Shown here one piece after another: positions 15,382 to 43,436 of a DNA stretch of 43,436 nucleotides; position 1 is the stretch's first letter; every line of letters starts with the position of its first letter. This stretch comes from Bacilli bacterium (GTDB taxonomy: Bacteria; Bacillota; Bacilli; Paenibacillales; KCTC-25726), in NCBI GenBank assembly GCA_036381315.1, contig DASVDB010000074.1, positions 1 through 43,436 of the forward strand, read 5' to 3'. Made by a program: the position numbers and the translations under genes. The notes beneath the pieces are model-generated. The model saw nothing but the letters and a program-made list of their open reading frames with translations, was not told the origin of the DNA and made no database searches.

Positions 15382-15415
15382 TGCATTTAATTTTTATTCA
15401 TTGCCGGAGGTAATT

Positions 15416-17281: not shown

Positions 17282-17308
17282 AGGCTTGATAGGAGGGACA
17301 TAAACAAG

Positions 17309-18214: not shown

Positions 18215-18218
18215 ATCC

Positions 18219-19229: not shown

Positions 19230-19245
19230 AAGGGGATTTAACACG

Positions 19246-20691: not shown

Positions 20692-20724
20692 TGGCAACAC
20701 GGCAAATGGAAGGAGGATGACTGC

Positions 20725-21597: not shown

Positions 21598-21599
21598 CC

Positions 21600-22628: not shown

Positions 22629-22641
22629 GAGGTGTAGAGAC

Positions 22642-26063: not shown

Positions 26064-26120
26064 ATTCCAAAAGCATTTTGCTGGAAAACAATTTTGCATC
26101 AAAGAAGGGGAGATTCGAAC

Positions 26121-27230: not shown

Positions 27231-27267
27231 TAAGCTCTGGCATGAATAAACGTAGAAATTAAACGTT

Positions 27268-27299
27268 CCGGGGAATGGCGCTAACCGCCATTTCCCCGG
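27268..27299 (+). other. Intercistronic hairpin after the binding-protein gene
   Basis: CCGGGGAATGGCG pairs with CGCCATTTCCCCGG across a four- to five-base loop with one bulged base; no T tract follows. Such hairpins after binding-protein genes commonly protect the upstream mRNA and lower downstream expression. Confidence 0.65.
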
Positions 27300-27336
27300 C
27301 AAATGCTTTGGCTTGCAATGAAAGGTGTGAGCGGCT

Positions 27337-28959
27337 TTGATCGCAGAACTGAAACGTTTGAGAAAAGATCCTGTATTGGCACTGGCGATTGCAGCCATTC
27401 TTGCAATAACGGCTATGTTCATTATCTGGCCAATCCTTAAAGTTGTAAGTTATCCGCATCTCGAAGACTTTCTAAGTTTATTTACAAATTCGCGCTGGTT
27501 CCATGCGGCTGTGAACAGTTTGCAAATGACGGTGATTTCCACAATAACTTGTACGGTATTGGCGTTTGTGTTCGCGTACGCGATCGCCAGGCTGGATGTC
27601 CCGCTAAAAGGACTGTTCAAATTTATTACGTTGTTGCCGATCGTCTCGCCGCCGTTTATTGTGGCGCTATCCTATATTTTGCTTTTCGGCCGGCAGGGGC
27701 TTGTCACGAAACAACTTTTTGGCCTGAACATTGATATTTACGGATGGCAGGGACTTTGGGTGGTGCAGACCATTACCTTCTTCCCGTACGCCTATGCGGT
27801 TATATACGGAGTGTTAAAAACGACTTCGGTCAATTTGGAATATGCCGCTTATAATTTGGGAGCGTCTCGCTGGCAAGTATTTAAGGATGTATTTTTTCCG
27901 CTTTGCCGACCGGGCATAGCGGGCGGAGCGCTCATCTCAGCTATGAGCATTTTGGCGGATTTCGGCAACCCGATCGTTATTGGCGGAAATTTTAACGTGC
28001 TTCCAACGGAAGCTTACATGCAAATGGTGGGATTTTTCGATTTGCCCGCCGCGGCAATGTTGTCGACTTACCTGTTGGTTCCGGCGCTTGGCATATTTAT
28101 CATCAACAGACGTTGGGTAGGAAAACGCTCCTATATTACCGTAACCGGGAAAGAAACCTCTTTGCCGCCTTATCCGATTCACAGATTTGTTAAATGGAGC
28201 ATTTTCGCATTCTGTATCTTTGTTTCCGCATTCGTGCTGGCCGTTTACGGAGTTTTGTTCTACGGCGCATTCGCCAAAACATGGGGATATGATTGGTCAT
28301 TTACTTTAAAAAATCTGCATTATGTTTTTGCCAAAGGCACTGAAATCACCAACAGCATCAAATTCGCGCTGATTTCTTCGCTCGCGGCTGCGGTGTTCTC
28401 CTTGTTGCTCGCCTATATTGTGCAAAGAAAACAAGTCGGGATTAACCGATTCCTTGATTTTCTCGCGATTTTGCCGGGAGCGGTTCCCGGAATATTCCTG
28501 GGACTTGGTTTCGCCATGGCGTTTAACGAAAAACCGTTCATGTTAACAGGAACATCCGCGATCATGATTCTCGCCTTAATGTTTTGGAATTTGCCCACAT
28601 GCTACAGTTCAAGCCTTGCGGGCTTGCAACAAATCGGGACTTCCTTGGAAGAGGCTTCTGTCAATTTGGGGGCGGGGAATTTCAAAACATTTAAATCCAT
28701 CTTGCTGCCGCTATTAAGCGGACCGTTCATTTCCGGTCTTGTCGTATCATTTTTGCGGTCGGTCACTTGCTTGAGCGTCGTCATTTTTATCTATTCCGCC
28801 AGCACATCGGTGGGCACCATTTCGATTCTCAGCCTTGTGCAAAATGGCGAATGGGGCGGGGCGTCGGCGTTTACGGTCGTGCTCATTTCAATCGCGTTCG
28901 CAGTTTTGGCGGCGACGAAACTTTTCTTTAGAAATCAGGGAAAGTCATACGATTTGTAA
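27337..28959 (+). CDS. ABC transporter permease, two-domain FbpB/AfuB type
   Basis: 540 residues from a TTG start at 27337, preceded by AAAGGTGTG. Two homologous halves, each with about six helices and its own coupling loop: EYAAYNLGASRWQVFKDVFF and EEASVNLGAGNFKTFKSILL. This fused-permease layout is typical of FbpB, AfuB and related importers for iron, hexose phosphates or phosphonates. It works with the upstream lipoprotein and the ATPase encoded 13 bases downstream. Confidence 0.9.
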   Translation: MIAELKRLRKDPVLALAIAAILAITAMFIIWPILKVVSYPHLEDFLSLFTNSRWFHAAVNSLQMTVISTITCTVLAFVFAYAIARLDVPLKGLFKFITLLPIVSPPFIVALSYILLFGRQGLVTKQLFGLNIDIYGWQGLWVVQTITFFPYAYAVIYGVLKTTSVNLEYAAYNLGASRWQVFKDVFFPLCRPGIAGGALISAMSILADFGNPIVIGGNFNVLPTEAYMQMVGFFDLPAAAMLSTYLLVPALGIFIINRRWVGKRSYITVTGKETSLPPYPIHRFVKWSIFAFCIFVSAFVLAVYGVLFYGAFAKTWGYDWSFTLKNLHYVFAKGTEITNSIKFALISSLAAAVFSLLLAYIVQRKQVGINRFLDFLAILPGAVPGIFLGLGFAMAFNEKPFMLTGTSAIMILALMFWNLPTCYSSSLAGLQQIGTSLEEASVNLGAGNFKTFKSILLPLLSGPFISGLVVSFLRSVTCLSVVIFIYSASTSVGTISILSLVQNGEWGGASAFTVVLISIAFAVLAATKLFFRNQGKSYDL

Positions 28960-28972
28960 TATGGAGGAGCAT

Positions 28973-30067
28973 ATGAAAACTGGGGAGAACTTGATACGAA
29001 TAGAAAATGTCACGAAGAGATTCGGCAATTTTACGGCGATCAATCATGTCTCGTTAGATATTCCAAAAGGCCAATTCACAACACTTCTCGGGCCGAGCGG
29101 ATGCGGCAAGACGACGCTGATGAGACTGATAGCCGGCTTTCACGAACCGGATGAAGGCAATATTTATATTGATGGCAATAAAATAAACGGAATTCCGGCA
29201 TATAAACGCAATACACCTCTAGTATTTCAGGATTATGCGCTTTTTCCGCACATGACCGTTTTTGAAAATATTTCGTATGGATTAAAGCTAATGAAAACCC
29301 CAAGCAAACAAATCAGCGAAAAAGTGCAAAGCATGCTGGAGATGTTTGGCTTGCAAGGTATGGAAAACAGGTATCCGAAGCAGTTAAGCGGCGGGCAGCA
29401 GCAAAGGGTCGCATTTGCGCGGGCGTTGATAATTGGCAAGTCCATTCTGTTGATGGACGAACCGCTCAGCAATCTCGATGCGAAAATGCGGGTGGAAGTG
29501 CGCAACGAGCTAAGGGCATTGCAACAGCGAACGGGGATAACGGCCATTTTCGTCACGCATGATCAGGATGAAGCGCTCTCCTTGTCGGATAAAATTGCCG
29601 TTTTCAATCGTGGAGAAATTCTTCAGGTTGGTTCCCCGTGGGAAGTTTATTTTAAACCTGGCAGCAAATTTGTCGCTGATTTTGTAGGCGTGGCAAATTT
29701 TTTGGAGGGTGAAGTAGCGGCTGTCGAAGAACAGGACATCTTCGTAAAATGCCAAGAGCTTTTAATCAAAGTGGGCAAAAGCGACTACTCCTTGCAAAAA
29801 GGCGATAAGGTGACGCTCGTCATTCGGCCGGAGTGCATTGCCATTTCCGCGGGCGCGGAGGGCATGAAGGAAGCCGATAATGTATTGAAAGGGGTTATTC
29901 AAAAGAGCAGTTTTTTGGGGCGAATGATTCGATATTGGGTGGAAGTCGACTCCATGCTATGGACTGTGGATGACGCCAATCCGAGCCGCACGGGGCATCT
30001 TGAAGGATTCGCGCAAATTGCTTTGGACAAAAGCAAGATTCATATATTGCCGAAGTTCGACAATTAA
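28973..30067 (+). CDS. ABC transporter ATP-binding protein, FbpC/PotA type
   Basis: 364 residues from the ATG at 28973, with GGAGG seven bases upstream; the longer frame overlaps the permease gene and has no ribosome site. Walker A GPSGCGKTT at 40-48, Q loop LVFQDYALFPHM, signature QLSGGQQQRVAFARAL, Walker B ILLMDEPLSNLD, switch His in VTHDQDEAL. A C-terminal TOBE-type domain (about 285-364) is present. It completes an FbpABC/AfuABC-like importer. Confidence 0.93.
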   Translation: MKTGENLIRIENVTKRFGNFTAINHVSLDIPKGQFTTLLGPSGCGKTTLMRLIAGFHEPDEGNIYIDGNKINGIPAYKRNTPLVFQDYALFPHMTVFENISYGLKLMKTPSKQISEKVQSMLEMFGLQGMENRYPKQLSGGQQQRVAFARALIIGKSILLMDEPLSNLDAKMRVEVRNELRALQQRTGITAIFVTHDQDEALSLSDKIAVFNRGEILQVGSPWEVYFKPGSKFVADFVGVANFLEGEVAAVEEQDIFVKCQELLIKVGKSDYSLQKGDKVTLVIRPECIAISAGAEGMKEADNVLKGVIQKSSFLGRMIRYWVEVDSMLWTVDDANPSRTGHLEGFAQIALDKSKIHILPKFDN

Positions 30068-30090
30068 ACCCGATCAGGGAGTGGGGAATA

Positions 30091-31005
30091 ATGGCAACCC
30101 TTTATGCGTTGAACGTCGGGCGCGGCGACTCGTTTTTTGTGGAAATTCCAACCGAAAAAAAATCATACGTGATTTTGCTCGACGGCGGCAACGTTTTTTT
30201 TGATGAAAGCGTCACTCCGCTTGGATTTATGCGCAAAAAAGGCTGGTCGTGTGTCGACTTGCTGATTTTAACTCATATACATCCCGATCATCTTATCGGG
30301 CTTTTGGATGTGGCAAAACACGCAACCGTAAAAGAGGCGGTGCTTCCCTATCCGATCTTTTCGCTTCATTTGGGTGCGATGCATCGGCCAAAGGCGCTGC
30401 AAACCGCCGAAATGCTGCAAAAATACGAACAGTTGTGGAGCGATTTGCAAGAACAAAACACCCGCATTTTTGTTCGATCTCCGTTTGGCGCAAAATCGGT
30501 TTGGCGGTTCGGCGAATTGCTGCTGCGCCATTTGGATCCGGTGGATAAAAACCATTTGTCCGCTTACAAAATAGTGGAACGACTTTCCGCATCGACTGCG
30601 GAAGAGCAGGAACATTTATGTGAAATTTTCGATGCGCAATCGAACGGGGACAGCAGTGTGTGGCTGTTGGAACACCAGAATGGCGCACACCTGTTTTTAT
30701 TTGGGGCTGACGCGCTCTTGCCGAACTGGGAACGAATCACAAAACGCGAACAACTGCATCCGCATGGTTTTAAAGTGCCGCATCATGGTGTGACAGATGC
30801 GTGGAACGAACATTTGCTGCAGCTGTTATCCCCGGATTGGCTTTTAATCACAAACGACGCTAACGAATACGAAATATATCACGAAAAATGGGAGCAACTT
30901 GCGAAATCTTCAGGCAGCCGGTTATTTGTAACCGGATCGCAGTCTGACACCCAGCATTATTTATCGCGGTTACCGCAGCTTCCGGAGAGGATTGAGATAA
31001 AATGA
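30091..31005 (+). CDS. Metallo-beta-lactamase-fold hydrolase, ComEC-like
   Basis: 304 residues. It opens LYALNVGRGDSFFVEIP and ILLDGGNV, very like the start of the ComEC metallo-beta-lactamase domain (VGQGDS). The metal motif HIHPDH is at 62-67 and a later FKVPHHGVTDAW supplies further ligands. No membrane helix. ComEC-like stand-alone proteins act on phosphodiesters or are unknown. Placed between an importer ATPase and a phosphatase gene, it could hydrolyse an imported phosphodiester or lactone. It overlaps the next start by four bases (ATGA), so the two are translationally coupled. Confidence 0.8.
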   Translation: MATLYALNVGRGDSFFVEIPTEKKSYVILLDGGNVFFDESVTPLGFMRKKGWSCVDLLILTHIHPDHLIGLLDVAKHATVKEAVLPYPIFSLHLGAMHRPKALQTAEMLQKYEQLWSDLQEQNTRIFVRSPFGAKSVWRFGELLLRHLDPVDKNHLSAYKIVERLSASTAEEQEHLCEIFDAQSNGDSSVWLLEHQNGAHLFLFGADALLPNWERITKREQLHPHGFKVPHHGVTDAWNEHLLQLLSPDWLLITNDANEYEIYHEKWEQLAKSSGSRLFVTGSQSDTQHYLSRLPQLPERIEIK

Positions 31006-31823
31006 TGCCGTTCAAACGACCATATCGCATGATCGTAACGGATATTGATGGAACACTGGTTGATACGCAGCAAATGATCAGTGCAGAGAACAAAACAAAA
31101 ATTTACTCCTTTCAACAGCAGGGCGGCATTGTTACGTTGGCTACAGGGCGCATGGAAGATGCGACTCGCCGTTTTGTCCAGGATTTGAATATACGGCATC
31201 CCGTTATCCTTTATAATGGGGGGAAAATTGTTGATTTTACGACGGGGCAATGCCTATTTGAGGCAGTCCTTGCGGAAGATGTAATCCGCGCACTGATCCG
31301 ATTGCTGGAAGCGAATCCGCATAATATGATTTTTTATTCGGAGAAAAAATTGTGGGTCAAAGAGATTACGCCGACATTGCAAGATTATATGAAAAAGGAT
31401 CAAGTTCAGTGCAGCGTTTGGAAGACGCCGGAATTTTTGCTGCAAAGCAAAGTCAACAAAATATTAATCATTCGGGAAGACCGTAACTTTTCCGCCGTGC
31501 GGCAGGCTTTAGAGCAGTTAACGGGCCGCTCTTGCGAATTGGTTCAGTCGGAGCCGACCTATTTGGAAGTTTTGCCTCAGGGCGTCTCCAAAGGGCGCGC
31601 TTTGCAAATGCTGGTCGACCATTTGGGCATAGATATCCGGGAAGTGATTGCGATCGGCGATAATTTGAACGATCTGGACATGATTTTAAAGGCTGGTTTG
31701 GGTGTGGCGGTTTCCAACGCGCATCCGAAACTGAAAGAACATGCGCAATATATTGCTTCTTCGCACCTTGACCACGCGGTCGCCGATGTAATTGAAAAAT
31801 ATTGTTTGCCGATTAACCGGTAA
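31002..31823 (+). CDS. HAD-superfamily phosphatase, Cof type (IIB)
   Basis: 273 residues. Motif I IVTDIDGTLVD with nucleophile D14 and acid D16, motif II in ATGRMEDATRR, a large type-IIB cap in the middle, the conserved Lys in GVSKGRALQML, and motif IV AIGDNLNDLDM. Cof-type enzymes remove phosphate from sugar phosphates and related metabolites in the cytoplasm. Coupled to the MBL gene by an ATGA overlap and next to an isomerase gene; the operon suggests that an imported phosphorylated compound is dephosphorylated here. An alternative Met start lies at 31005. Confidence 0.88.
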   Translation: MMPFKRPYRMIVTDIDGTLVDTQQMISAENKTKIYSFQQQGGIVTLATGRMEDATRRFVQDLNIRHPVILYNGGKIVDFTTGQCLFEAVLAEDVIRALIRLLEANPHNMIFYSEKKLWVKEITPTLQDYMKKDQVQCSVWKTPEFLLQSKVNKILIIREDRNFSAVRQALEQLTGRSCELVQSEPTYLEVLPQGVSKGRALQMLVDHLGIDIREVIAIGDNLNDLDMILKAGLGVAVSNAHPKLKEHAQYIASSHLDHAVADVIEKYCLPINR

Positions 31824-31852
31824 TTTTAAGACGTTCCTGTGGAGGAAATTTT

Positions 31853-32695
31853 ATGATTGTTGGTTTGGGAGAATGGGGATTGCAATATCTGTCAATAGAA
31901 GAGCATTGCAAAATTACGAAAAGTTTCGGCATGCGATACTTGGAGTTGGGAATCGGCGGAGATTTTCCCGGTAGAATACAACGCGATGTTTCCCAGCAGG
32001 AAGTTGACGATCTGCTCACTTGTTTGCAAGATTATGGAATACGAGCGCCGTTCGTCGTATTGGAAAGTGATTTCACGTTGGAGGACCCGCAAGAAGTGCG
32101 GAAAATGATCGAGCGGGCCGCCAATGATATTCGATTGGCCGCCCGCCTTGGCGCCACGCATGTGCGATTGTTTGCCGGATTCGAGCTTGCCGCCAACATG
32201 ACGGAGGACCGTTGGGCGCGCATGATTCAAGCGTTTTCCGAACTTCATGCGCTTTGCCAAAAGTACGATATTGTCATTTCGATTGAAACGCATGGGCGAA
32301 TCACGAAGAAAAATAATGGGTTTATTCAGGAACATACCGTGACAACAGAGTGGAACTCGTTGCAACGGCTGTTGCGGGAACTTCCCCCGGAGGTCGGTTT
32401 TAATTTTGACCCGGGAAATTTGAAAACGGTAGCGGAGCGTTCGTTAAGCGATTATGCCAAACTGCTTGGGAACCGGATCAATTACTGCCATTTGAAAGAC
32501 TGGAAGCGGACGGATGATTACTGGGTGGCTTGCGCGCCCGGCGACGACGACTTAAATTATGACGAATTGCTAGAATCAATGACATTTCAAGGCGTTTATC
32601 TCATTGAATACGAACAAGTAAACGATGTCGTCGATGGTATTGGCAGAAGCCTGAAATATTTGCGCTCAATACGGCCCGATTTGCGGTTTGAATAA
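31853..32695 (+). CDS. Sugar phosphate isomerase/epimerase, xylose-isomerase-like TIM barrel
   Basis: 280 residues, GGAGG eight bases before the ATG. The xylose-isomerase-like TIM-barrel is shown by GMRYLELGIGGDFPG, ARLGATHVRLFAGFELAANM, the acidic metal ligands in VISIETHGRI and VGFNFDPGNL, then INYCHLKDWKR and YLIEYEQVND. Members include IolE, IolI, IolH, L-ribulose-5-P and tagatose epimerases. The iol operon here lacks IolI/IolH, and this could be a functional stand-in. The exact substrate is not readable. Confidence 0.85.
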   Translation: MIVGLGEWGLQYLSIEEHCKITKSFGMRYLELGIGGDFPGRIQRDVSQQEVDDLLTCLQDYGIRAPFVVLESDFTLEDPQEVRKMIERAANDIRLAARLGATHVRLFAGFELAANMTEDRWARMIQAFSELHALCQKYDIVISIETHGRITKKNNGFIQEHTVTTEWNSLQRLLRELPPEVGFNFDPGNLKTVAERSLSDYAKLLGNRINYCHLKDWKRTDDYWVACAPGDDDLNYDELLESMTFQGVYLIEYEQVNDVVDGIGRSLKYLRSIRPDLRFE

Positions 32696-33683: not shown

Positions 33684-33697
33684 TTGTAACTACATAG
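33684..33697 (+). repeat. Direct repeat copy 1, TTGTAACTACATAG
   Basis: Identical 14-mer occurs again at 33755-33768, 71 bases on. Both lie upstream of the GntR gene, so they are candidate paired operator sites; the TGTA..TACA core has dyad symmetry. Confidence 0.5.
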
Positions 33698-33754: not shown

Positions 33755-33768
33755 TTGTAACTACATAG
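33755..33768 (+). repeat. Direct repeat copy 2, TTGTAACTACATAG, at the GntR promoter
   Basis: Second copy of the 14-mer. Its first six bases could serve as a weak -35 (TTGTAA) for TATACT at 33780-33785 with a long 19-base spacer, so a bound protein would hinder the regulator promoter. Confidence 0.5.
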
Positions 33769-33821: not shown

Positions 33822-34544
33822 ATGAACACAATCAATAAATTAAGTCCAGTTCCTCTTTATCATCAAATAAAAAAGGAATTGGAAAAGAAAATAAAAGAAG
33901 GACAATTTAACGACAACCCAAACTTTTTGAGCGAGCAGGAAATTTGCGAGATGTATTCCGTCAGCCGGACAACGGTCAGGCAAGCGCTAAGAAAAATGAT
34001 CGAAGAAGGATTGCTGTACAAAAACGATTTGCGCGGCAGGCTGCGTGTGGCTGCGCCGAAGGTCAATCAAAACTTGACGAGATTGTACGGCTTTTTTACG
34101 GAAGATGTGTTGAATTCAGGAATGAAACCGCATACGAAGCTGCTTTCGTTGGAGGAAGTGCATGATCCGCATATTTTATCATTGCTTGGGCTGCAGGAAA
34201 ATGAAACGGCGTATCTGATTTCCCGACTGCATGAAGGAAGCGATGAACCGCTCGCGATTCAAAACTCCTATATCGCCGAGAAAGTTTTGCCCAATATCAA
34301 AGAATTAGATTTGACGAAATCAATATTTAAATATATTACCAAGTATTCCGCAGTCAGAGGCACGCAGATTATCAGTATGCGTTTCCCGACCAGCCGGGAG
34401 AGGACGCTCTTGCGTTTGAACAACAAAGTTAGCGTATTTCAAATAAACCGCACCAGTTATGCGGAAGACGGGACGGTGATTGAATACTTTGAGTGTGTCC
34501 TAAGCGGGGACCGCTATAATTTCACAATCGATTGGACCTCGTAA
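33822..34544 (+). CDS. GntR-family transcriptional regulator, HutC/UTRA type
   Basis: 240 residues; GGGAG lies nine bases before the ATG. Winged helix at about 8-75 (PLYHQIKKELEKKIKEG, SVSRTTVRQALRKMIEEGLL) and UTRA domain at about 90-238 (LISRLHEGSDEPLAIQNSYI). Related in plan to the GntR protein at 8291 but clearly different in sequence. It is the only regulator beside the importer and CoA-pathway genes and probably represses them until a ligand is bound. Direct repeats upstream and an inverted repeat at 34688 are candidate sites. Confidence 0.92.
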   Translation: MNTINKLSPVPLYHQIKKELEKKIKEGQFNDNPNFLSEQEICEMYSVSRTTVRQALRKMIEEGLLYKNDLRGRLRVAAPKVNQNLTRLYGFFTEDVLNSGMKPHTKLLSLEEVHDPHILSLLGLQENETAYLISRLHEGSDEPLAIQNSYIAEKVLPNIKELDLTKSIFKYITKYSAVRGTQIISMRFPTSRERTLLRLNNKVSVFQINRTSYAEDGTVIEYFECVLSGDRYNFTIDWTS

Positions 34545-34604
34545 TTCGCGTGTATACGTGAACGGTACCGCTTTCGCCCGGGGCCCGAGACGACAACACC
34601 GCAG

Positions 34605-34646
34605 AATAAACAACCAGTTCCGGGGAAGCGGCGCCGTTTATTTTTT
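34605..34646 (+). terminator. Possible terminator after the GntR gene
   Basis: AATAAAC (34605-34611) pairs with GTTTATT (34636-34642), followed by four more T residues. The stem is AT-rich with a long GC-rich loop, so strength is uncertain. Confidence 0.4.
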
Positions 34647-34651
34647 GTCCC

Positions 34652-34726
34652 ATTGTAAGCGCATTCCTTACAATTCTTCACAAACGAATACACAGTGTTT
34701 GTTATTACAGACACTTTGTATATAAA
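34652..34726 (+). promoter_or_regulatory. Promoter region with two inverted repeats upstream of the sugar importer operon
   Basis: ATTGTAAG (34652-34659) and CTTACAAT (34667-34674) form a perfect 8-bp repeat around seven bases, with a cre-like TGTAAGCGC. A second repeat has 15-base arms (34688-34702 and 34707-34721, 13 of 15 paired) around TATT. The second overlaps a putative -35 TTGTTA (34699-34704) and -10 TATAAA (34721-34726). The GntR protein and catabolite control are the likely binders. Confidence 0.55.
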
Positions 34727-34750
34727 AAATTAAGCCAAGGGGTGTTCGAA

Positions 34751-36082
34751 GTGAAAATGTTCAGATTGGCAAGCATCATGTTGTTAACGCTTTCGTTGAT
34801 TTTTGTCGCGGCGTGTTCCGGCGGCGGGGGGAGCAAAAACGATGCGACTCAGGAAACCAATCAGCCGGACAAAGCTGCGAACGAAACGACAAACAATTCG
34901 GGACAAGAACTGCTCTTTGTCGGCTGGAGCGGCGAGCAAGAACTTGCCGGACCTCCGATCAAAAGTTACATGAAAGCCTGGAGCGATGCGCATGCGCCGG
35001 ATTCGATTACATGGATGGGGTGGCCGTGGGGGCAAACGCTTGAGCAATTGCTCCTCAGAGGGCAAGGCAATGAACAGATGGATGTGGCGCAAGTCGATAT
35101 CGGCTGGCTGAAAACACTGAGCGACGCCGGCTTGTTGACGGACTTGTCTACGGTATTTGATCAAAAATGGCTGACGGATAATTACAGCGAAGCATATTTG
35201 AAAATGGGCCAGGTGGACGGCAAGCAGGTTGCGCTTCCATGGACCGTCGCCGCCACTTCGCTGGTGAAAAATCCAAGCATTCTGGAAGCATCCGGCGTTA
35301 AGCAAGATCCGACGACGATCGAAGAATTTGAAGCGGCTCTGAAGCAAATCAAGGCGGCGAATAAAGACATCGTCCCATACGCGTTTGACACCAAAGATGA
35401 AGAAATGAGCACGGACTTTCAGGTTTGGCTGAAAATGTTCGGCAGCGACGTATTTGACGATAATGGCAATATCATTATCAACAACGAGGGCGGCGTCAAG
35501 GCGGTTACCTGGTTGAAGAGCTTGCTGGATCAAGGTTTGGTCAAGATGGATATTGCCAAGTATGATGCCAGACAATTGTTTGTTCAGGGAAAAACGGCAT
35601 ATATCGACGACTCGATCATTATCAAGGGGAATGTAAGCAGCGCGGGCGTTTCCGCCGCCGATTTGCCTTCCAGGATAAGCCCGGTAAAAAGGCCGGTTGT
35701 AAAAGCGGGCGACCCGCAAGTATCCAAGCTGTGGGGACATATGCTGGTTATTCCGACTACGGCCGTTGCTCCAAAGAAATCAGCAAGCTTCATTCAGCAC
35801 CTTGTAGGTCCCGAATCCTCATTGGATTACTTCACCAAAGTGGGACAATTGCCGGTTGTCAAGGAAGCGATCGCCAACGAGAAGGTGCAGAGCGATCCGA
35901 TTTCCAAAACGTGGTTGGAGTTGACCGAATTCAGCACGCCGTCGGATACGGAAAGAACCAATGTGAAAAAAGTGCTTGATAAAATTATTACGGAGGAAGT
36001 CCAGGCGGCTATGCTGGGTGCGAAGTCGCCGCAAAAAGCAATGGATGATGCGGCTTCCCGTATAAAAGAGGCAATGAAATAA
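34751..36082 (+). CDS. ABC transporter sugar-type substrate-binding lipoprotein (family 1)
   Basis: 443 residues from a GTG at 34751, eight bases after AAGGGG; an ATG two codons later is possible. Lipoprotein signal LSLIFVAACSGGG, an Asn/Thr-rich linker, then a carbohydrate-type solute-binding domain (ELLFVGWSGEQELAGPPIKS, MDVAQVDIGWLKTLSDAGLL, GKQVALPWTVAATSLVKNPS). The family binds oligosaccharides, polyols and glycerol-phosphate-like ligands. Unusually, its permease genes lie 2.5 kb downstream, beyond a crotonase and a CoA-transferase gene. A strong hairpin follows at 36101-36157. Confidence 0.9.
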   Translation: MKMFRLASIMLLTLSLIFVAACSGGGGSKNDATQETNQPDKAANETTNNSGQELLFVGWSGEQELAGPPIKSYMKAWSDAHAPDSITWMGWPWGQTLEQLLLRGQGNEQMDVAQVDIGWLKTLSDAGLLTDLSTVFDQKWLTDNYSEAYLKMGQVDGKQVALPWTVAATSLVKNPSILEASGVKQDPTTIEEFEAALKQIKAANKDIVPYAFDTKDEEMSTDFQVWLKMFGSDVFDDNGNIIINNEGGVKAVTWLKSLLDQGLVKMDIAKYDARQLFVQGKTAYIDDSIIIKGNVSSAGVSAADLPSRISPVKRPVVKAGDPQVSKLWGHMLVIPTTAVAPKKSASFIQHLVGPESSLDYFTKVGQLPVVKEAIANEKVQSDPISKTWLELTEFSTPSDTERTNVKKVLDKIITEEVQAAMLGAKSPQKAMDDAASRIKEAMK

Positions 36083-36100
36083 GGTTTGTCGCATGCACAG

Positions 36101-36157
36101 CGCCGCCTGCTGAAAAGGCTGTCGAATGTTTCGGCCCTCCTTTCCGGCGGGCGGGCG
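36101..36157 (+). other. Intercistronic hairpin after the sugar-binding protein gene
   Basis: CGCCGCCTGCTGAAAAGG (36101-36118) pairs with 36139-36157, allowing two G-U pairs, one mismatch and one bulge. No T tract follows. It lies between the binding-protein stop and the crotonase start, matching the hairpin at 27268 in position. Confidence 0.5.
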
Positions 36158-36190
36158 TTCTACTTCATACACAAAAGGGAGGAAGACAGG

Positions 36191-36976
36191 ATGTCTTCTC
36201 ATTTCGGCGATTCGGAATATCACGATTTGTCTGTGGAAATCCGCGACGACATCGCGATTGTGGCGATCAACCGCCCTAAGGTGTTGAATGCTTTATCAAG
36301 AAAGACAAAACGCGAGCTCAGGGATTTCTTTCAAAAAGCGAATGAGCGCGCGGATTTTAAAGCTGTGATCCTGACCGGCGGGGGAGAGCAATCGTTTTGC
36401 GCCGGAACGGATTTGAAGGATATGGGCACACACGAAACGGTCGAAGGGGTGGACATGCTGTGGCTTGAGCATCGCATGAATGAAGCCATTCGCTATTGCA
36501 ACAAACCCGTAATTGCCGCAGTGAACGGCTATGCTCTCGGCAGCGGATGCCTGATGACGATTTTGTGCGATTATTCGGTTGTCGCCGACTCTGCCATCCT
36601 CGGCTTTCCCGAAATTAAGGCCGGCTTGCCTTCTTGCATCGAAATCGCCCTTCTCCCCCGGTTGGTTGGCCTGGCCAAGGCCCGGGAGATGACCTATTTC
36701 GGGGAGCCAATCAGTGCCAAAGAGGCGCTGGATATAGGTCTGATCAACAAAATCGTGCCGAAAGAAGCTGTCATGCAGGCCGCCGTGCAGATTGCCCGCA
36801 AATTTATCGCAATCAGCCCTGCGGCAAGACGCAGCCAGAAAGAATTAATCAACAAATGGATCGAAACGGATTTTAAAGCGGCCGTAGAATACAGCATACC
36901 GTTGGGCGGCGTCTGTTTCGCGACCGGCGAGCCGAAAATTGAAATTCAAAAATTTTTGGATAAAAAGCGCAAGTAA
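36191..36976 (+). CDS. Enoyl-CoA hydratase/isomerase family (crotonase fold), atypical active site
   Basis: 261 residues from the ATG at 36191 after GGGAGG; the longer frame would include the hairpin. Crotonase features: oxyanion-hole segments SFCAGTDLKDM and NGYALGSGCLM, then LGFPEIKAGL. In standard hydratases GGGCE supplies one catalytic Glu; here the residue is L121 (GSGCL). The second Glu is kept as E141. So simple hydration is doubtful; isomerase, hydrolase or C-C cleaving activity is possible. Substrate is probably a CoA ester made by the CoA-transferase encoded next. Confidence 0.88.
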   Translation: MSSHFGDSEYHDLSVEIRDDIAIVAINRPKVLNALSRKTKRELRDFFQKANERADFKAVILTGGGEQSFCAGTDLKDMGTHETVEGVDMLWLEHRMNEAIRYCNKPVIAAVNGYALGSGCLMTILCDYSVVADSAILGFPEIKAGLPSCIEIALLPRLVGLAKAREMTYFGEPISAKEALDIGLINKIVPKEAVMQAAVQIARKFIAISPAARRSQKELINKWIETDFKAAVEYSIPLGGVCFATGEPKIEIQKFLDKKRK

Positions 36977-37021
36977 TAACAGGCAGGCGCATTACATCAG
37001 CAAAAATTGGGAGAGACGACC

Positions 37022-38575
37022 ATGATCCAAAAAATTTCCGCAGAAGAAGCAGCTATGAAAGTAAAGTCGGGCCAAACCGTGATCGTTTCCGGGAATGGGG
37101 AAATGCTGCTGCCGGACGATTTGTTGGCCGCCCTCGAGAAGCGTTTTTTGGAAACGGGCGAGCCGCGCGATTTAACTTTGATATACAACGTGATTCCGGG
37201 TGCGCAGCGAAGCGGCACCGGAATTGACCGGTTCGCCCACCCGGGGATGGTAAAGCGTATTTATGCCGGGGCTTATTTTACGCTCAGAGTGGATAAATTG
37301 AATGAACTCATCAAAAACAATCAGGTGGAAGCTTATCTGATTCCGTACGGGGCGCTCTATAATATGGTGCGGGCCGGCTCGGCAGGTCATCCGGGTATTC
37401 TTACTTCCGTGGGACTGGGGACGTTCGTCGATCCGCGCAACGGGAAATATCGCTTGACGGCGCGGACGACGGAAGACATCGTGCGCGTGATGACGATTGA
37501 CGGCAAAGAATATTTGTACTGGAAAGCCTTGTCCGCGGATGTTGCCTTGATTCGCGCGACGACGTCTGATGAAGAGGGAAACCTGTCGATCGAACAGGAA
37601 CCGAATTCAATCGGCTTGCTCCATCAGGCCATGTTGGCGAAAAACAACGGCGGCATTGTCATCGCACAGGTGAAACAAATTTCCAAACCATTTTCGGTCC
37701 ATCCGAAACTGATTACCGTGCCGGGCATCTTTGTCGACTACGCCGTTGTTGCGCCAAATCAAATGGACGCCATGCCGTATAATCCCGCCTGGACGGGCGA
37801 CATTCAAGTACCGGTTGATGAATTGCAACCGATTCCGCTCGATTACCGGAAAGTCATCGCCCGGCGCGCGGCAATGGAACTGCGGCCCGGGGATTTGGTG
37901 AATTTCGGATTTGGCTTGCCTTCGGATGTGCCGGCGATTGCCGGTGAAGAAGGGATTTCCGAGAAATTGATCTTCAACGTGGAGCATGGGCCGATTGGCG
38001 GCATCCCCAACAACAAGGAAGCTTTTGGCGCCGGAGTGAATATGACGGCGATCATGGATGGGCCCGATATTTCCGATCTTTTTGACGGGGGACGTCTGGA
38101 CATGACTTGCCTCGGAATGGCGGAAGTCGATCCGAACGGGAGTGTGAATGTGAGTTGCGTGAATGGCAGGTTCAACCTGGGCGGCTTTATGGATATTGTG
38201 CATGCGACCAAGCGCATCGTTTTTTGCGGCACGTTCACGGCGAAGGGGCTCAAAGCGGAAGTGAAGGATGGCCGGCTGCATATTTTGCAAGAAGGAAAAT
38301 TTGTCAAATTCATTCCATCGTTCGATTATGTGTCCTTTAACGGAAAAGCCGCGTTTGCAAAAGGCCAGCAGGTAACATATGTAACTGAACGGGCCGTATT
38401 TTCGCTGACGGAAAAAGGCTTGACGCTGATTGAAATCGCCCCGGGAATCGATCTGGAGAAAGATGTCCTTTCGCTCATGGCCTTCCGCCCTCATATTTCA
38501 GAGTCGTTAAAAGAAATGGATGCAAGAATCTTCAAACCGGAGAAGATGGGGCTTGCTCACGATTTTGCCAAATAA
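37022..38575 (+). CDS. Acyl-CoA:acetate/propionate CoA-transferase, YdiF/Pct-like
   Basis: 517 residues, one chain holding both alpha- and beta-like halves. N-terminal half: VKSGQTVIVSGNGEMLLPDD and later LIRATTSDEEGN. C-terminal half: MELRPGDLVNFGFGLPSDVP and catalytic E321 in NVEHGPIGGIPNN, the residue that forms the glutamyl-CoA intermediate. The family moves CoA from acetyl-, propionyl- or succinyl-CoA to a free acid in the cytoplasm. Lying between two crotonase genes, it probably activates an acid formed in this pathway. GGGAGAG lies before the ATG. Confidence 0.92.
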   Translation: MIQKISAEEAAMKVKSGQTVIVSGNGEMLLPDDLLAALEKRFLETGEPRDLTLIYNVIPGAQRSGTGIDRFAHPGMVKRIYAGAYFTLRVDKLNELIKNNQVEAYLIPYGALYNMVRAGSAGHPGILTSVGLGTFVDPRNGKYRLTARTTEDIVRVMTIDGKEYLYWKALSADVALIRATTSDEEGNLSIEQEPNSIGLLHQAMLAKNNGGIVIAQVKQISKPFSVHPKLITVPGIFVDYAVVAPNQMDAMPYNPAWTGDIQVPVDELQPIPLDYRKVIARRAAMELRPGDLVNFGFGLPSDVPAIAGEEGISEKLIFNVEHGPIGGIPNNKEAFGAGVNMTAIMDGPDISDLFDGGRLDMTCLGMAEVDPNGSVNVSCVNGRFNLGGFMDIVHATKRIVFCGTFTAKGLKAEVKDGRLHILQEGKFVKFIPSFDYVSFNGKAAFAKGQQVTYVTERAVFSLTEKGLTLIEIAPGIDLEKDVLSLMAFRPHISESLKEMDARIFKPEKMGLAHDFAK

Positions 38576-38590
38576 GGGAGGGGGTTGTAT

Positions 38591-39490
38591 ATGAATAAGG
38601 ATAGCAGGATCAACCGCAGGCTGTCCGACAGTCAGTTCGGGGTCATATTAATCTTGCCGGCCCTGGCCGTGTTTCTTTCCGTCATCCTGTATCCGTTTTT
38701 AAAATCGATAACGCTTAGTTTTACCAATCTGAGTTTGCTAAGCCCTAAAACCTCATATGTCGGTTTTGCCAATTTTATGGAATTGTTTCATAACCCTTAT
38801 TTATATGAGTATATCAAAAATACGATCGTCTTTGTCGCCGGGACGACGTTGATTCCTTTCGTGCTCGGATTTATTTGGGCCATTGTGTTGAATCACGGTT
38901 TTAAAGGTTCGGAATTTTTGAAAGGGATTACTTTGGTCAACTGGATTATCCCCAGCACCGCCATCGGTTTTTTGTGGATCTGGATTTTTCAGGGGAATTA
39001 CGGTTTTGTCAATTACATTTTAAAAATGTTGGGCGTAATCAAGAATGATATTTCATGGCTGGGTAGGGTCGATACCGCGATGATTGCGGTTATCATTGCG
39101 AAATCGTGGCAAACATTGCCCTGGTTTATGGCTTATCTGATTGGCGGATTAAACATGGTGCCGAAGGAGCAAATTGAAGCGGCCCGCATCGATGGCGCCA
39201 ACAACCTGATGGTTTTTCGGCATGTCATTTGGAGCAATATGAGAATGATCATCAGTTTCCTGCTTATTCTCGGCGCAATCGGCAACCTGCAGCACTTTGA
39301 CATTTTATGGGTCATGACGCAAGGCGGACCGATCCGATCGACGACGACTTTATCGGTTGCCGTTTATCGCACCGCTTTTCAGGAATGGAATATCGGGATG
39401 GCGGCAACGATCGGCGTTATTTGGGTCGTAATGATTTCGTTATTCGCCGTTTTCTATTTGCGGCATATTTTGCGGGAAGATTTGAAATAA
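38591..39490 (+). CDS. Sugar ABC transporter permease, MalF/UgpA type
   Basis: 299 residues from the ATG at 38591 after GGGAGGGGG. Six helices; the coupling loop EQIEAARIDGANNLMVFRHV is the EAA motif of carbohydrate importers. N-terminal sequence FGVILILPALAVFLSVILYP is typical. It pairs with the permease encoded 31 bases on and the binding protein at 34751. No ATPase is encoded in the window part of this cluster. Confidence 0.93.
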   Translation: MNKDSRINRRLSDSQFGVILILPALAVFLSVILYPFLKSITLSFTNLSLLSPKTSYVGFANFMELFHNPYLYEYIKNTIVFVAGTTLIPFVLGFIWAIVLNHGFKGSEFLKGITLVNWIIPSTAIGFLWIWIFQGNYGFVNYILKMLGVIKNDISWLGRVDTAMIAVIIAKSWQTLPWFMAYLIGGLNMVPKEQIEAARIDGANNLMVFRHVIWSNMRMIISFLLILGAIGNLQHFDILWVMTQGGPIRSTTTLSVAVYRTAFQEWNIGMAATIGVIWVVMISLFAVFYLRHILREDLK

Positions 39491-39521
39491 AGTTTGTGAA
39501 ACGAGGCGAGGTGAGGGGCAT

Positions 39522-40352
39522 ATGTTTGAAAAATCAAAATCTTATCGGATCTTTTTTTGGATCTCGTTTATCCTGATCGGCCTGTTTGTGCTTTTCCCGC
39601 TGTACTGGATGATCAATACGGCATTAAAACCGATTACGGAGGTATTGACGCCTGATATATGGCCCAAGCATCCAACATTGGTCAACTTCATGGAAGTTTT
39701 TCAGAACAAGGAAATTTTGCTGTACTTTAAAAACAGTTTTATCGTATCGATCGTAACCAGCATTCTCTCCACTTTCGTGGCGGCCTATGCGGCGTACAGC
39801 TTTTCCAAGTATCGTTACAAAGGCAGAATTTCTTTTATGTTATTGATTCTTGTTTCCAAAATGTTCCCTTACGCCGTTCTTCTGCTCAGCATTTATGTGA
39901 TGATGCAAACGCTCGGCATGCAGGACAGCTACGCGGCTTTGGTCGTCTCGTACATCACTTTTGCGCTGCCGGTTGCGGTGTGGACGCTGAAAACTTATTT
40001 CGACGAAATCCCGGATGCGCTTGTCGAAGCTGCGAAAATCGACGGGGCGTCAAACTTCGGAATCATTCATAAAATCATTTTTCCGCTCGCGATTCCCGGT
40101 TTGATTTCGACAGCCATCTACAGTTTCGTGTGGAGCTGGAACGATATTCTGTATTCTTTAACTTTGATCACTTCCGCGGAAAAAAGGACGCTCGCCTCCG
40201 GTTTGATCATGACCTACATCGGGGAAGGAAACGATAACTGGGCCGGAATGATGGCCGCTTCCGTTGTGGTTTCCATTCCGGTGGCGATTATTTTCATTGC
40301 CGTGCAAAGGTTCTTTGTCCAGGGCCTGACGGCCGGGGCGGTAAAAGGATGA
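39522..40352 (+). CDS. Sugar ABC transporter permease, MalG/UgpE type
   Basis: 276 residues. Six helices, starting FWISFILIGLFVLFPLYWMI, with the EAA loop DALVEAAKIDGASNFGIIHK and a typical end FVQGLTAGAVKG. It forms the channel with the MalF-type partner upstream. In Bacillota such importers are often powered by a shared ATPase (MsmX type) encoded elsewhere, which would explain the missing ATPase gene. Confidence 0.93.
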   Translation: MFEKSKSYRIFFWISFILIGLFVLFPLYWMINTALKPITEVLTPDIWPKHPTLVNFMEVFQNKEILLYFKNSFIVSIVTSILSTFVAAYAAYSFSKYRYKGRISFMLLILVSKMFPYAVLLLSIYVMMQTLGMQDSYAALVVSYITFALPVAVWTLKTYFDEIPDALVEAAKIDGASNFGIIHKIIFPLAIPGLISTAIYSFVWSWNDILYSLTLITSAEKRTLASGLIMTYIGEGNDNWAGMMAASVVVSIPVAIIFIAVQRFFVQGLTAGAVKG

Positions 40353-40413
40353 AACTTTATGCCGCGGAGCTTGCCGTAATGAAATGAACTTAAGCAATGG
40401 AGTTGAATGACAG

Positions 40414-41202
40414 ATGTCGCAGGATGCGCTGGTTTTATTGAAAAAGTTTGCGGATGGAGTTGCCCACCTGATTTTTAATCATCCGCCGCTCAATCTGATG
40501 TCGGCCGATTTCAACCGGCAATTGGACCGCGTGCTCGATGAAATCGCCATTGATGCCGGAATTCGGGCCGTTGTGGTTACGGGCGCGGGAGAGAAAGCGT
40601 TTTGCGCCGGCTCGGACATTAAGGAATTTCCCGGGCTTGTGCGGGAAGGAACGCATATTACCAAAAAACTGGATCCGGAAAACCAATTGCTGGACAAATT
40701 GAGCTTTTTGCCGCAACCGACCATTGCCGCCTTGAACGGCGTAACGCTCGGCGGAGGCGGGGAAGTTGCCTTATGTTGCGACTTGCGAATCATGGGCGAA
40801 AGCGGTCGCATCGGATTTCCGGAAATAAAATTGGGATTGTTCCCGGGTAGCGGCGGCTTGGTGCGTCTGCCCAGGCTTGTCGGAGACAGCAGGGCAAAAG
40901 AACTGATGTTCTTCGGGGAACTGATCACTGCGCACAAAGCTTTGGCGATCGGATTGGTGAACGAAGTGGTACCGGATGGGAAAATTGTGGAACGCGCCCA
41001 TGAGCGTGCCGCGCAATTGGCAAACTTGTCCGCGCAGGCCATTCAGGCGATCAAATTGGGCGTGAACCAGGTGCGCGACATGCCGCACCAGCAAGGAATA
41101 CGGTTCTCGCTCGAACTAAGCCGCCGGATATTCCTGACGGACAATGCCAAAGAAGGCATTCAGGCGTTTTTTGAAAAACGGAAGCCGACATTTAATGCGT
41201 AG
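40414..41202 (+). CDS. Enoyl-CoA hydratase/isomerase family (crotonase fold)
   Basis: 262 residues. Crotonase motifs AFCAGSDIKEFPG and NGVTLGGGGEVALCCDLR, then IGFPEIKLGLFPGSGG. Both catalytic Glu positions are kept (E117 and E137), so hydratase chemistry is plausible, unlike the enzyme at 36191. It probably acts on the CoA ester after oxidation. It follows the importer permeases by 61 bases and precedes a flavoprotein, consistent with one operon. Confidence 0.92.
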   Translation: MSQDALVLLKKFADGVAHLIFNHPPLNLMSADFNRQLDRVLDEIAIDAGIRAVVVTGAGEKAFCAGSDIKEFPGLVREGTHITKKLDPENQLLDKLSFLPQPTIAALNGVTLGGGGEVALCCDLRIMGESGRIGFPEIKLGLFPGSGGLVRLPRLVGDSRAKELMFFGELITAHKALAIGLVNEVVPDGKIVERAHERAAQLANLSAQAIQAIKLGVNQVRDMPHQQGIRFSLELSRRIFLTDNAKEGIQAFFEKRKPTFNA

Positions 41203-41241
41203 TGAAGGCTTTGCAGAGGGAAGGAAGGTTGGAAGTGCCCG

Positions 41242-42975
41242 ATGAATCATGATATTCAATCCGCGGAACAGCTTTTTACGGACGTATTGGTGATTGGCAG
41301 CGGAGGAGCGGCGCTTAGGGCAGCTCTTGAAGCGCATAAAGCGGGAGCCGAAGTGTTAATTGTCGTGAAAGGCCAGCATCAAAAAAGCGGAGCGACTTAT
41401 TATAGCGTCGCGGAGATCGGCGCATTCAACGTTCCGGATGGCGCGGCCGATCCGAATGATCAACCGGAGCATTACTATAACGATATTCAAAATGCCGCAT
41501 TGGGCATGTCCGACCCGCGATTAAGCCGGATACTGGCTTCCGAGGCGCAAGCCGCGATGCGTGATCTGGAAAATTACGGTGTTGTGTTTGAAAAAGAAGA
41601 TGATCATTACCTGGCGTTTCAAGCCTGTTTTTCTTCAAAGCCCAGAACGCATGTGATCAAAAACCATTTTAAACCCATTGTGCATGCGCTTGGTTCCCAG
41701 GTGACCAAAGAAAATATCCGTTATATCGAAAGATGCATGATAACAGATTTGATCGTGCGGGACGGCCAATGTTTTGGCGCCTTTGCAATCGATCAAAACG
41801 GCAAATTCCTCGTCATTCGGGCGAAAGCGACAATACTGGCCACGGGCGGCGCCAGCCAGTTGTTCGCAAAAAACCTGTATCCGCCCGACATAACCGGCGA
41901 TGGGTATGCCATGGCTTACCGGGCAGGCGCCCAACTGGTCAATATGGAGTTCATGCAGGCGGGCATCAGCCTGTTAAATCCCGTTAATTTATTCAATTCC
42001 TATATGTGGGAGGCTTTCCCGCGGGTTACAGACAGGGATGGGCTTCCGTTTATTGCCAATTATTTGCCCGACGGTGTGACAGAAGAGGAAGTGATGAAAA
42101 CCAAAGCAAGACATTTTCCGTTCAGCACGAGAGATCATTCCAGGTACCTGGAAATATCGATTCAAAGCGAAATCAACAAGGGCCATGGGACGGCAAACGG
42201 CGGGGTATATCTGGATTATCTGCAAACCGATTTTGCCAAAATTCTTCAGGATAAAAAGTCGGATATCGGCAAAATGTGGAGCTTGGCTTATGACTGGTAT
42301 TTGCGCCGGAATGTCGATTTGTATAAGGACCGGTTGGAGATTACTTGTTCCGCCCATGCCATCAACGGCGGGGTGCGAATCAATGAAGACGCCCATTCCA
42401 GCGTGATCGGGCTTTTTGCCGCCGGGGAAGTGGCCGGCGGGCCGCACGGCGCGGATCGGCTGGGCGGGAATATGGCGGTGACGTGCCAGGTGTTTGGCAG
42501 CAGGGCCGGGAAGGCTGCAGCCAGGTTCTCCCGGGAAATCGGCGGGCATCGTGAAATGAAGCCTGCATTAAACGCGCATCAGGAATTTATTTACCGCATA
42601 CGGCATCAGCGCGGCGTGTTAAAAATCGGCGATCTGAAAAAGCGGCTGCAGGAAAGCGCCAACCGGAATTTGCTGATCATTCGCAGCGAAGAGTCGTTGC
42701 GGCAATTGAACGAGCTGATTTATGAACTGGAAGACAGTTTGTTATCGCAAAACTGTTCTGTCGAGTCAGCCAAAGACCTTGTCCGCGCGATTGAATTGAA
42801 AAATTTGCTGGATGCCGGCCGGATGATTTCAAACGCCGCTTTAGCGAGGAAGGAAAGCAGAGGGGGACATTATCGCACTGACTTTCCGACGCTGGATCCG
42901 AATTTAAGTCAAAACATCATTATAGACGCGAACAGGCCGGAAGGTTGTTTTTTCGCGAAATTGGCCGAGTTGTAA
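41242..42975 (+). CDS. FAD-dependent oxidoreductase, fumarate reductase/succinate dehydrogenase flavoprotein-like
   Basis: 577 residues. FAD-binding dinucleotide motif VIGSGGAALRAALEAHKAG (17-36); QKSGATYYS; LATGGASQLFAKNLYPPDIT with GDGYAMAYRAGAQLVNMEF; and near the end NGGVRINEDAHSSVIGLFAA followed by GEVAGGPHGADRLGGN. This is the FrdA/SdhA/NadB family. No iron-sulfur or membrane-anchor partner is next to it, so it may act as a stand-alone dehydrogenase or reductase of a C=C bond. Placed between a crotonase and an alcohol dehydrogenase gene. Substrate unknown. Confidence 0.88.
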   Translation: MNHDIQSAEQLFTDVLVIGSGGAALRAALEAHKAGAEVLIVVKGQHQKSGATYYSVAEIGAFNVPDGAADPNDQPEHYYNDIQNAALGMSDPRLSRILASEAQAAMRDLENYGVVFEKEDDHYLAFQACFSSKPRTHVIKNHFKPIVHALGSQVTKENIRYIERCMITDLIVRDGQCFGAFAIDQNGKFLVIRAKATILATGGASQLFAKNLYPPDITGDGYAMAYRAGAQLVNMEFMQAGISLLNPVNLFNSYMWEAFPRVTDRDGLPFIANYLPDGVTEEEVMKTKARHFPFSTRDHSRYLEISIQSEINKGHGTANGGVYLDYLQTDFAKILQDKKSDIGKMWSLAYDWYLRRNVDLYKDRLEITCSAHAINGGVRINEDAHSSVIGLFAAGEVAGGPHGADRLGGNMAVTCQVFGSRAGKAAARFSREIGGHREMKPALNAHQEFIYRIRHQRGVLKIGDLKKRLQESANRNLLIIRSEESLRQLNELIYELEDSLLSQNCSVESAKDLVRAIELKNLLDAGRMISNAALARKESRGGHYRTDFPTLDPNLSQNIIIDANRPEGCFFAKLAEL

Positions 42976-42992
42976 AGAACGGGGGATGAGGA

Positions 42993-43436
42993 ATGAGTGT
43001 GCTTCCGGAAACAATGCGGGCTTTAGTTTACGAAGCCCCTCGCCAAATGACAATGAGAGAGGTAAAGGTGCCGAAACCGGAAACGGGCGAGCTCTTGATT
43101 CGCGTTTCCGTGGCGGGCATTTGCGGCTCGGATTTGGGAGGATACCTGGGGCATAATTCGCTGCGCAAGCCGCCGCTGATCATGGGACATGAGTTTTCCG
43201 GAACGGTCGCCGCCATCGGAGTTGGAGCGGCGGAAAAAGCGGGAAAACCGTTTCGGATTGGCGATCGGGTAACCGTGAATCCCCTTGTAAGCTGCGGGCA
43301 ATGCGATCGCTGCAAAGAAAGCAGGGAGCACTTATGCCCCGACCGCAAACTTCTCGGCGCGGGGCTGCCGGGCGCTTTTGCCGAATTTGTCAAAGTGCCT
43401 GCGGAAAATGTGCATCATTTGCCCGATTCCGTAAGT
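42993..43436 (+). CDS. Zinc-dependent alcohol dehydrogenase (C-terminus beyond window)
   Basis: 148 residues are in the window and the frame runs off its end. The ATG at 42993 follows GGGGGATGAGGA. Catalytic zinc ligands show as GICGSDLGGYLG (Cys) and MGHEFSGTV (His-Glu); the structural zinc lobe shows as NPLVSCGQCDRCKESREHLC. Medium-chain dehydrogenase family, related to threonine, sorbitol and butanediol dehydrogenases. The Rossmann half is outside the window. Probably oxidises a hydroxyl group in the same pathway. Confidence 0.93.
   Translation, partial: MSVLPETMRALVYEAPRQMTMREVKVPKPETGELLIRVSVAGICGSDLGGYLGHNSLRKPPLIMGHEFSGTVAAIGVGAAEKAGKPFRIGDRVTVNPLVSCGQCDRCKESREHLCPDRKLLGAGLPGAFAEFVKVPAENVHHLPDSVS

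Follow-up and report, generated by a model that had tools for sequence, protein, structure and literature searches.

Which compound is broken down by an operon in which the importer of a carbohydrate stands in one row with enzymes acting on coenzyme A (CoA) esters? This question is raised by the last genes of the window, that is the whole stretch of 43,436 nucleotides analysed here, which makes up the entire contig DASVDB010000074.1 (C74) in the 2.78 Mb draft genome of a Bacilli bacterium (GCA_036381315.1). The operon may serve, with a probability of roughly 45%, the import and CoA-thioester catabolism of an acidic carbohydrate, either a sugar acid or a uronic-acid glycoside. From sequence comparison, this proposal draws support from a sister cluster elsewhere in this genome, from an operator common to both clusters, from a CoA-transferase gene at 27 of 28 loci encoding related flavoproteins, and from recurring sugar-acid enzymes and sugar ATP-binding cassette (ABC) importers. 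By analogy, it is also consistent with deoxyribonate, a precedent for CoA-linked sugar-acid catabolism (PMC6365646).

Layout of the operon

Nine plus-strand genes form a tight row, with intergenic gaps of 15 to 61 bp from the gene for the first crotonase (ECH1) through that for the alcohol dehydrogenase (ADH). The 3' side is cut by the contig end at 43436, inside the ADH gene.

33822..34544, + strand: GntR/UTRA regulator (Pfam UTRA 1.2e-26, GntR 1.7e-11); a 50% paralogue heads the cluster on contig C50 (L034)
34742..36082, + strand: CUT1-type extracellular sugar-binding lipoprotein (SBP_bac_8 1.5e-26, SBP_bac_1 1.2e-23)
36188..36976, + strand: ECH1, crotonase fold (ECH_1 1.3e-54)
37019..38575, + strand: class I CoA-transferase, YdiF/FadX-like (PDB 2ahu E=2.7e-120; VEHGPIGG motif)
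38591..39490, + strand: MalF-type permease (BPD_transp_1 2.8e-16)
39522..40352, + strand: MalG-type permease (BPD_transp_1 5.1e-20)
40414..41202, + strand: ECH2, hydratase-type crotonase (ECH_1 8.9e-57)
41242..42975, + strand: FrdA-like flavoprotein (FAD_binding_2 5.1e-52, Succ_DH_flav_C 5.1e-17)
42993..43436, + strand: Zn-dependent ADH, N-terminal 148 residues (ADH_N 1.4e-29), open at the contig end

The starts of ECH1 and of the CoA-transferase were taken as 36188 and 37019, both being placed further upstream in the raw list of open reading frames (ORFs). All genes named in the first-pass annotation of this DNA are present, on one strand and closely spaced; its count of eight has to be raised to nine, plus a FAH-family gene on contig C6. 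The gene classes were confirmed by Pfam and NCBIfam. Chance is excluded as an explanation, because the Pfam E-values range from 1e-11 to 1e-57 and the enzyme core recurs elsewhere.

The importer belongs to the CUT1 carbohydrate type, as a binding protein of the SBP_bac_1/8 families is accompanied by MalF and MalG permeases, and the remote PDB relatives of the binding protein are sugar-binding proteins. No ATPase gene for it was found in the operon, and an MsmX-type ATPase is assumed to be shared. No CaiB/carnitine genes are found in the operon, and thiolase, electron-transfer flavoprotein (ETF) and acyl-CoA dehydrogenase are absent from its ORFs; the carnitine or fatty-acid cluster that the first-pass annotation had named as a reading opposed to its own is therefore not what is seen.

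A sister cluster under a common operator

A second cluster, arguably more informative than the operon itself, was found on contig C50 of the same genome.

L034:1632-9413, one direction: sister cluster with genes for GntR, binding protein (L034:2508-3857), MalF, MalG, CoA-transferase, crotonase and GH88
33685..33697, + strand: GntR operator copy 1, TGTAACTACATAG, within a 21-bp repeat (pattern TGTAAYTACATMG)
33756..33768, + strand: GntR operator copy 2, TGTAACTACATAG, within a 21-bp repeat (pattern TGTAAYTACATMG)

Between C50 and the window, identity reaches 50% for GntR, 48-49% for the CoA-transferase and 50% for the crotonase (to ECH2), the uptake proteins being less alike (binding protein 19%, permeases 27%). 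The 13-bp near-palindrome TGTAAYTACATMG occurs exactly four times genome-wide, twice per cluster, and not once in a reversed control, in a pattern that was built from those same sites. Both window copies lie upstream of the regulator; on C50, one lies upstream of the regulator and the other ahead of the binding-protein gene. A looser search allowing three mismatches gave no enrichment over the control, so that only the tighter pattern is specific. Because the GntR, CoA-transferase and crotonase genes are paralogous and the operator is common while the binding protein and permeases diverge, the two clusters look like duplicated modules, similarly regulated and with different uptake specificity.

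The GH88 protein of C50 is similar over its full length to unsaturated glucuronyl hydrolases (2zzr E=1e-50) and has the aligned Asp pair, which we take to be its catalytic residues; it can be assigned to the family. GH88 enzymes act on 4,5-unsaturated uronides, compounds that are otherwise known as products of polysaccharide lyases. In C50, the CoA-transferase and hydratase pair followed by GH88 would allow the unsaturated uronide to be made without a polysaccharide lyase.

A more specific form of the acidic-carbohydrate proposal can be built on this cluster. Glucuronic acid glycosides would be imported and converted to glycosyl-uronyl-CoA, a crotonase would eliminate the beta-hydroxyl (C4-OH), the resulting 4,5-unsaturated uronide would be dismantled by GH88 or by an ADH/FAH branch, and the flavoprotein subfamily would add a further step. 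The gene content of C50, the common operator and the GH88 genes at two flavoprotein loci (L019, L028) point in this direction. Nevertheless, a uronide-specific lyase system of this kind appears unlikely: GH88 is missing from the window operon and from most of the flavoprotein loci, and we know of no precedent for a crotonase working on a pyranosyl uronyl-CoA. An order-wide pattern of GH88 beside CoA genes was also considered and was rejected, as it was not seen in the GH88 loci of other genomes that were examined. In the same way, 4-O-methylglucuronate from xylan was discarded as a substrate, with no GH67 in the genome and no supporting publication found.

CoA-transferase and crotonases

The CoA-transferase is of the class I YdiF type, being similar to YdiF over its full length and retaining the catalytic Glu of the motif. 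It scores 349 bits with the staphylococcal FadX model, below the cut-off of 750, and its gene context differs from that of YdiF/FadX. At the search threshold used, the genome holds only two class I genes of this type, for which reason chance proximity to the FrdA-like gene should be rare. Neighbours of class I CoA-transferases at 45% identity on Rhizobium/Bosea plasmids were of polyhydroxybutyrate type or from other contexts, and were uninformative.

Both catalytic Glu residues of enoyl-CoA hydratases are kept in ECH2 and in the C50 crotonase. In the alignment, ECH1 has Leu in place of the first and keeps only the second, which suggests an isomerase- or lyase-like protein of the crotonase fold.

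The two crotonases and the Zn-ADH had initially been likened to Dch, Oah and Had, the course proposed being import, CoA activation, oxidation and ring opening of a hydroxylated cyclic acid (for instance quinate or shikimate) as in benzoyl-CoA metabolism. Such a route is quite improbable. Two crotonases, a Zn-ADH and a CoA-transferase could suffice for it, the crotonase and Zn-ADH superfamilies are shared with BadI, Had, Dch and Oah, and BadI and Had are among the weaker family matches; however, the scores of 125 bits for BadI (cut-off 468) and 74 for Had (cut-off 339) fall far short, the Had score having been obtained with the N-terminal half of the ADH only. Moreover, neither the operon nor the surroundings of the flavoprotein loci compared showed any recognisable genes for quinate, shikimate or aromatic rings, and no publication was found that ties such genes to hydroaromatic acids. 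The neighbourhoods contain sugar-acid and uronide enzymes (GH88, AraD1/GguC, DapA, KGSADH, FAH) rather than aromatic or hydroaromatic ones, and lend no support to a quinate or shikimate substrate.

A distinct subfamily of FrdA-like flavoproteins

The predicted structure of the flavoprotein (pLDDT 90) matches the fold of SdhA/FrdA and of L-aspartate oxidase with TM-scores of 0.7 to 0.8. In an alignment of 15 sequences, the His/Arg pair that binds one carboxylate is kept (H372 in 14 of 15, R406 in all). With site assignments based on the SdhA numbering as we presume it to be, the H242 site is occupied by Gly or Val, the T254 site by Trp in 15/15 (Trp 256), and the R286 site of the catalytic Arg by R, S or Y, Arg being present only sometimes. 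No covalent-FAD His was seen in the window protein, and no genes for iron-sulfur or membrane subunits were found among the ORFs of the operon. The likeness to SdhA/FrdA and L-aspartate oxidase is thus one of fold and of a single carboxylate pair, without the second site, the flavin-linking His or the partner genes of succinate dehydrogenase and fumarate reductase. As the second carboxylate site is lost, the catalytic Arg is variable and the covalent-FAD His is missing, the protein probably does not act as a fumarate reductase, and is likely to bind its substrate with one carboxylate close to the flavin. By these residues it is a distinct subfamily, the single annotated record seen being labelled 'FAD-binding protein'.

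Recurrence of the enzyme core in other genomes

Relatives at 45-61% identity were found in Alpha-, Beta- and Gammaproteobacteria, in NC10 and Clostridia-type genomes, and in a small number of Bacilli. Among the 399 genomes of its own order, an FrdA-like protein at E <= 1e-100 was found in the window genome only. The CoA-transferase gene lies within about 9 kb at the 27 loci mentioned above, the exception being a 4.4-kb contig; it is of class I at 13 loci and of class III at 14, never of both. MaoC accompanies 21 and a crotonase 13 of the 28 loci, which are not independent, as six are of Paraburkholderia/Burkholderia type and four of Kaistia type. Importers vary between CUT1, CUT2-like, Opp, TRAP and TTT systems, sugar ABC systems being included. 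The search for co-occurrence elsewhere, which the first-pass annotation had suggested, thus found the enzyme core in distantly related bacteria, with varying importer types. Sugar-type import together with CoA-thioester chemistry, as first noted in the window, does recur in other genomes, and the operon is equipped with a regulator and an operator of its own.

The closest core is L122, from another Bacilli genome, with MaoC, a CoA-transferase (69% identical to that of the window), a DapA family gene, a crotonase (52% identical to that of C50), FrdA (60%), LacI and TRAP. Sugar-acid enzymes stand near other relatives. AraD1/GguC scores over its cut-off at one, with an aldehyde dehydrogenase resembling ketoglutarate-semialdehyde dehydrogenase (KGSADH) adjoining; KGSADH itself scores over cut-off near a relative, together with a FAH-family gene; and DapA family genes recur. 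GH88 is found beside FrdA with CaiB and MaoC at L019, and beside FrdA and CaiB at L028, which also has a GarR-like reductase. Further loci contain GMC and sugar ABC genes. Among cultured relatives, Paracandidimonas soli, Castellaniella sp. S9 and Halalkalibacter oceani combine a CoA-transferase and FrdA with MaoC or AraD1.

The main rival explanation starts from the same loci. The substrate would be a carboxylic acid, be it short, branched or a side chain, and would be degraded by a route of the beta-oxidation type. In this route the FrdA-like protein would stand in for acyl-CoA dehydrogenase, ECH2 would act as hydratase, the ADH would oxidise the beta-hydroxyl, and ECH1 and the FAH protein would cleave, the CUT1 importer being merely a recruited transporter. 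An acyl-CoA dehydrogenase gene is present at half of the FrdA loci, often with MaoC, CaiB and importers of the TRAP kind usual for carboxylates. The neighbours of distant relatives (34-35%) include acyl-CoA dehydrogenase and Liv-type ABC genes, to which ETF is added at the single locus examined for it. Even so this route is doubtful, since CUT1/CUT2-type importers, LacI-type regulators, GH88, GMC, AraD1, DapA and KGSADH recur near the closer relatives, and the window operon itself lacks the thiolase, ETF and acyl-CoA dehydrogenase of beta-oxidation.

Two further groups of loci may be mentioned. The Bacilli genome of L122 holds a second cluster of the subfamily, L121, about 18 kb away; each has LacI and TRAP, one with a class III and the other with a class I CoA-transferase. 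In three genomes of the order (L073-L075), a distant FrdA (34-35%) forms a trio with a CoA-transferase and a crotonase, neighboured by acyl-CoA dehydrogenase, aldehyde dehydrogenase and Liv-type ABC genes. ETF, Fe-ADH and an Fe-S reductase are present in L073, where alone they were looked at.

Probable continuation on contig C6

Genes to the right of 43436, which the first-pass annotation had proposed to read, are not found within the window. Genome-wide, one ADH C-terminal domain starts at a contig edge, on C6.

L033:3-581, C6: 193-residue C-terminal half of an ADH (ADH_zinc_N), opening the contig
L033:592-1581, C6: FAH-family gene (FAA_hydrolase), directly after the ADH half

Compared with a full-length homologue, the ADH halves of C74 and C6 fit one gene with about 11 residues missing between them, and the end of the ADH and the FAH gene would in this way be recovered for the operon. 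Of all families, the FAH protein matches 2,4-didehydro-3-deoxy-L-rhamnonate hydrolase best, with 236 bits; this lies below the NCBIfam cut-off of 500, so that it is not assigned as a 2,4-diketo-3-deoxy sugar-acid hydrolase. Beyond it, genes resembling those of cobalamin transport and synthesis follow on C6, as judged by sequence inspection.

Proposed pathway and points against it

An acidic-carbohydrate pathway is proposed because of the CoA-transferase, hydratase and GH88 logic of C50 and the 2-keto-3-deoxy acid enzymes found elsewhere. The CoA-transferase would activate the substrate carboxylate, and ECH2 would remove (or add) a beta-hydroxyl, turning a uronide or aldonate into a 4,5-unsaturated uronide or a 2-keto-3-deoxy acid. 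The FrdA-like protein may carry out a redox step adjoining the carboxylate. In the window operon and several of its relatives, enzymes of 2-keto-3-deoxy acids (ADH/FAH; AraD1; DapA; KGSADH) would take the place of GH88. The ADH would oxidise the 4-hydroxyl of the 2-keto-3-deoxy acid, and with the FAH protein the 2,4-diketo acid would be split into pyruvate and another acid that carries a hydroxyl group. Least certain in this model are the role of the FrdA-like protein and the nature of the substrate.

Several points weigh against such a pathway. The acidic sugar is a candidate substrate only. Many FrdA relatives stand with TRAP or TTT importers and acyl-CoA dehydrogenases, a context that suits ordinary carboxylic-acid catabolism equally well, and a simple beta-elimination does not account for the FrdA-like protein. 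Only the window genome showed GH88 together with a class I CoA-transferase and a crotonase; CoA genes were absent from the GH88 loci examined in other genomes (best matches, 1.5 kb flank). That C74 runs on into C6 is deduced and not read from sequence, and no sequence similarity was detectable between the FAH protein and AraD1.

Relation to known systems

In Klebsiella michiganensis, catabolism of deoxyribonate via acyl-CoA intermediates was proposed on genetic evidence, with a cluster containing a CoA-synthetase, beta-hydroxyacyl-CoA dehydrogenase, thiolase, glycerate kinase, MFS importers and a CoA-transferase (PMC6365646). The initial view that CoA-ester enzymes are foreign to sugar catabolism was thus too strong. 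The passage of a sugar acid through acyl-CoA intermediates and the CoA-transferase are shared with the present proposal; however, the Klebsiella cluster as described (PMC6365646) includes neither an FrdA-like protein nor a pair of crotonases nor an ABC importer, and CoA-synthetase, thiolase and glycerate kinase are absent from the window operon ORFs.

Streptococcal and Rhizobium GH88 systems combine a CUT1 importer with GH88 as C50 does, but on the Rhizobium plasmids heparinase II/III is found nearby, whereas C50 has a CoA-transferase and a crotonase instead. The LRA5/LRA6 pathway, with its L-2,4-diketo-3-deoxyrhamnonate hydrolase, ends with a dehydrogenase and a FAH-family hydrolase, as is likewise proposed for the window operon. 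Unlike that pathway, the operon has a Zn-ADH and not a short-chain dehydrogenase/reductase, and a FAH protein under the cut-off; genes for a sugar dehydrogenase, a lactonase and an aldonate dehydratase are missing from it.

In the open-access literature searched, whose coverage is limited, no account of this enzyme set turned up, which agrees with the first impression that no characterised operon has it. What would be new is the enzyme set for an acidic-sugar route, CoA-bound sugar-acid catabolism having been proposed for deoxyribonate with different enzymes. If true, the proposal would bring acidic sugars into the range of acyl-CoA chemistry, for which precedents are very few, and would give a first context to a widespread subfamily of FrdA-like flavoproteins. 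The GH88 cluster of C50 offers a testable reaction, from glucuronide and acyl-CoA to an unsaturated uronide.

Other genes of the window

A complete myo-inositol operon occupies 15401-23466, with IolD, IolE, IolC, IolA, IolJ, IolG and IolB in this order, as assigned from translations and an IolB/KduI family hit. The KduI Pfam hit at 22678 was rejected as evidence for uronate metabolism, as it sits in this operon and is most likely IolB. At 26094-32695, an iron/phosphonate-type ABC importer (binding protein, fused permease, ATPase) is followed by a protein of the metallo-beta-lactamase (MBL) fold, a Cof-type HAD phosphatase and a xylose-isomerase-like TIM barrel; these genes may serve to take up a phosphorylated compound.

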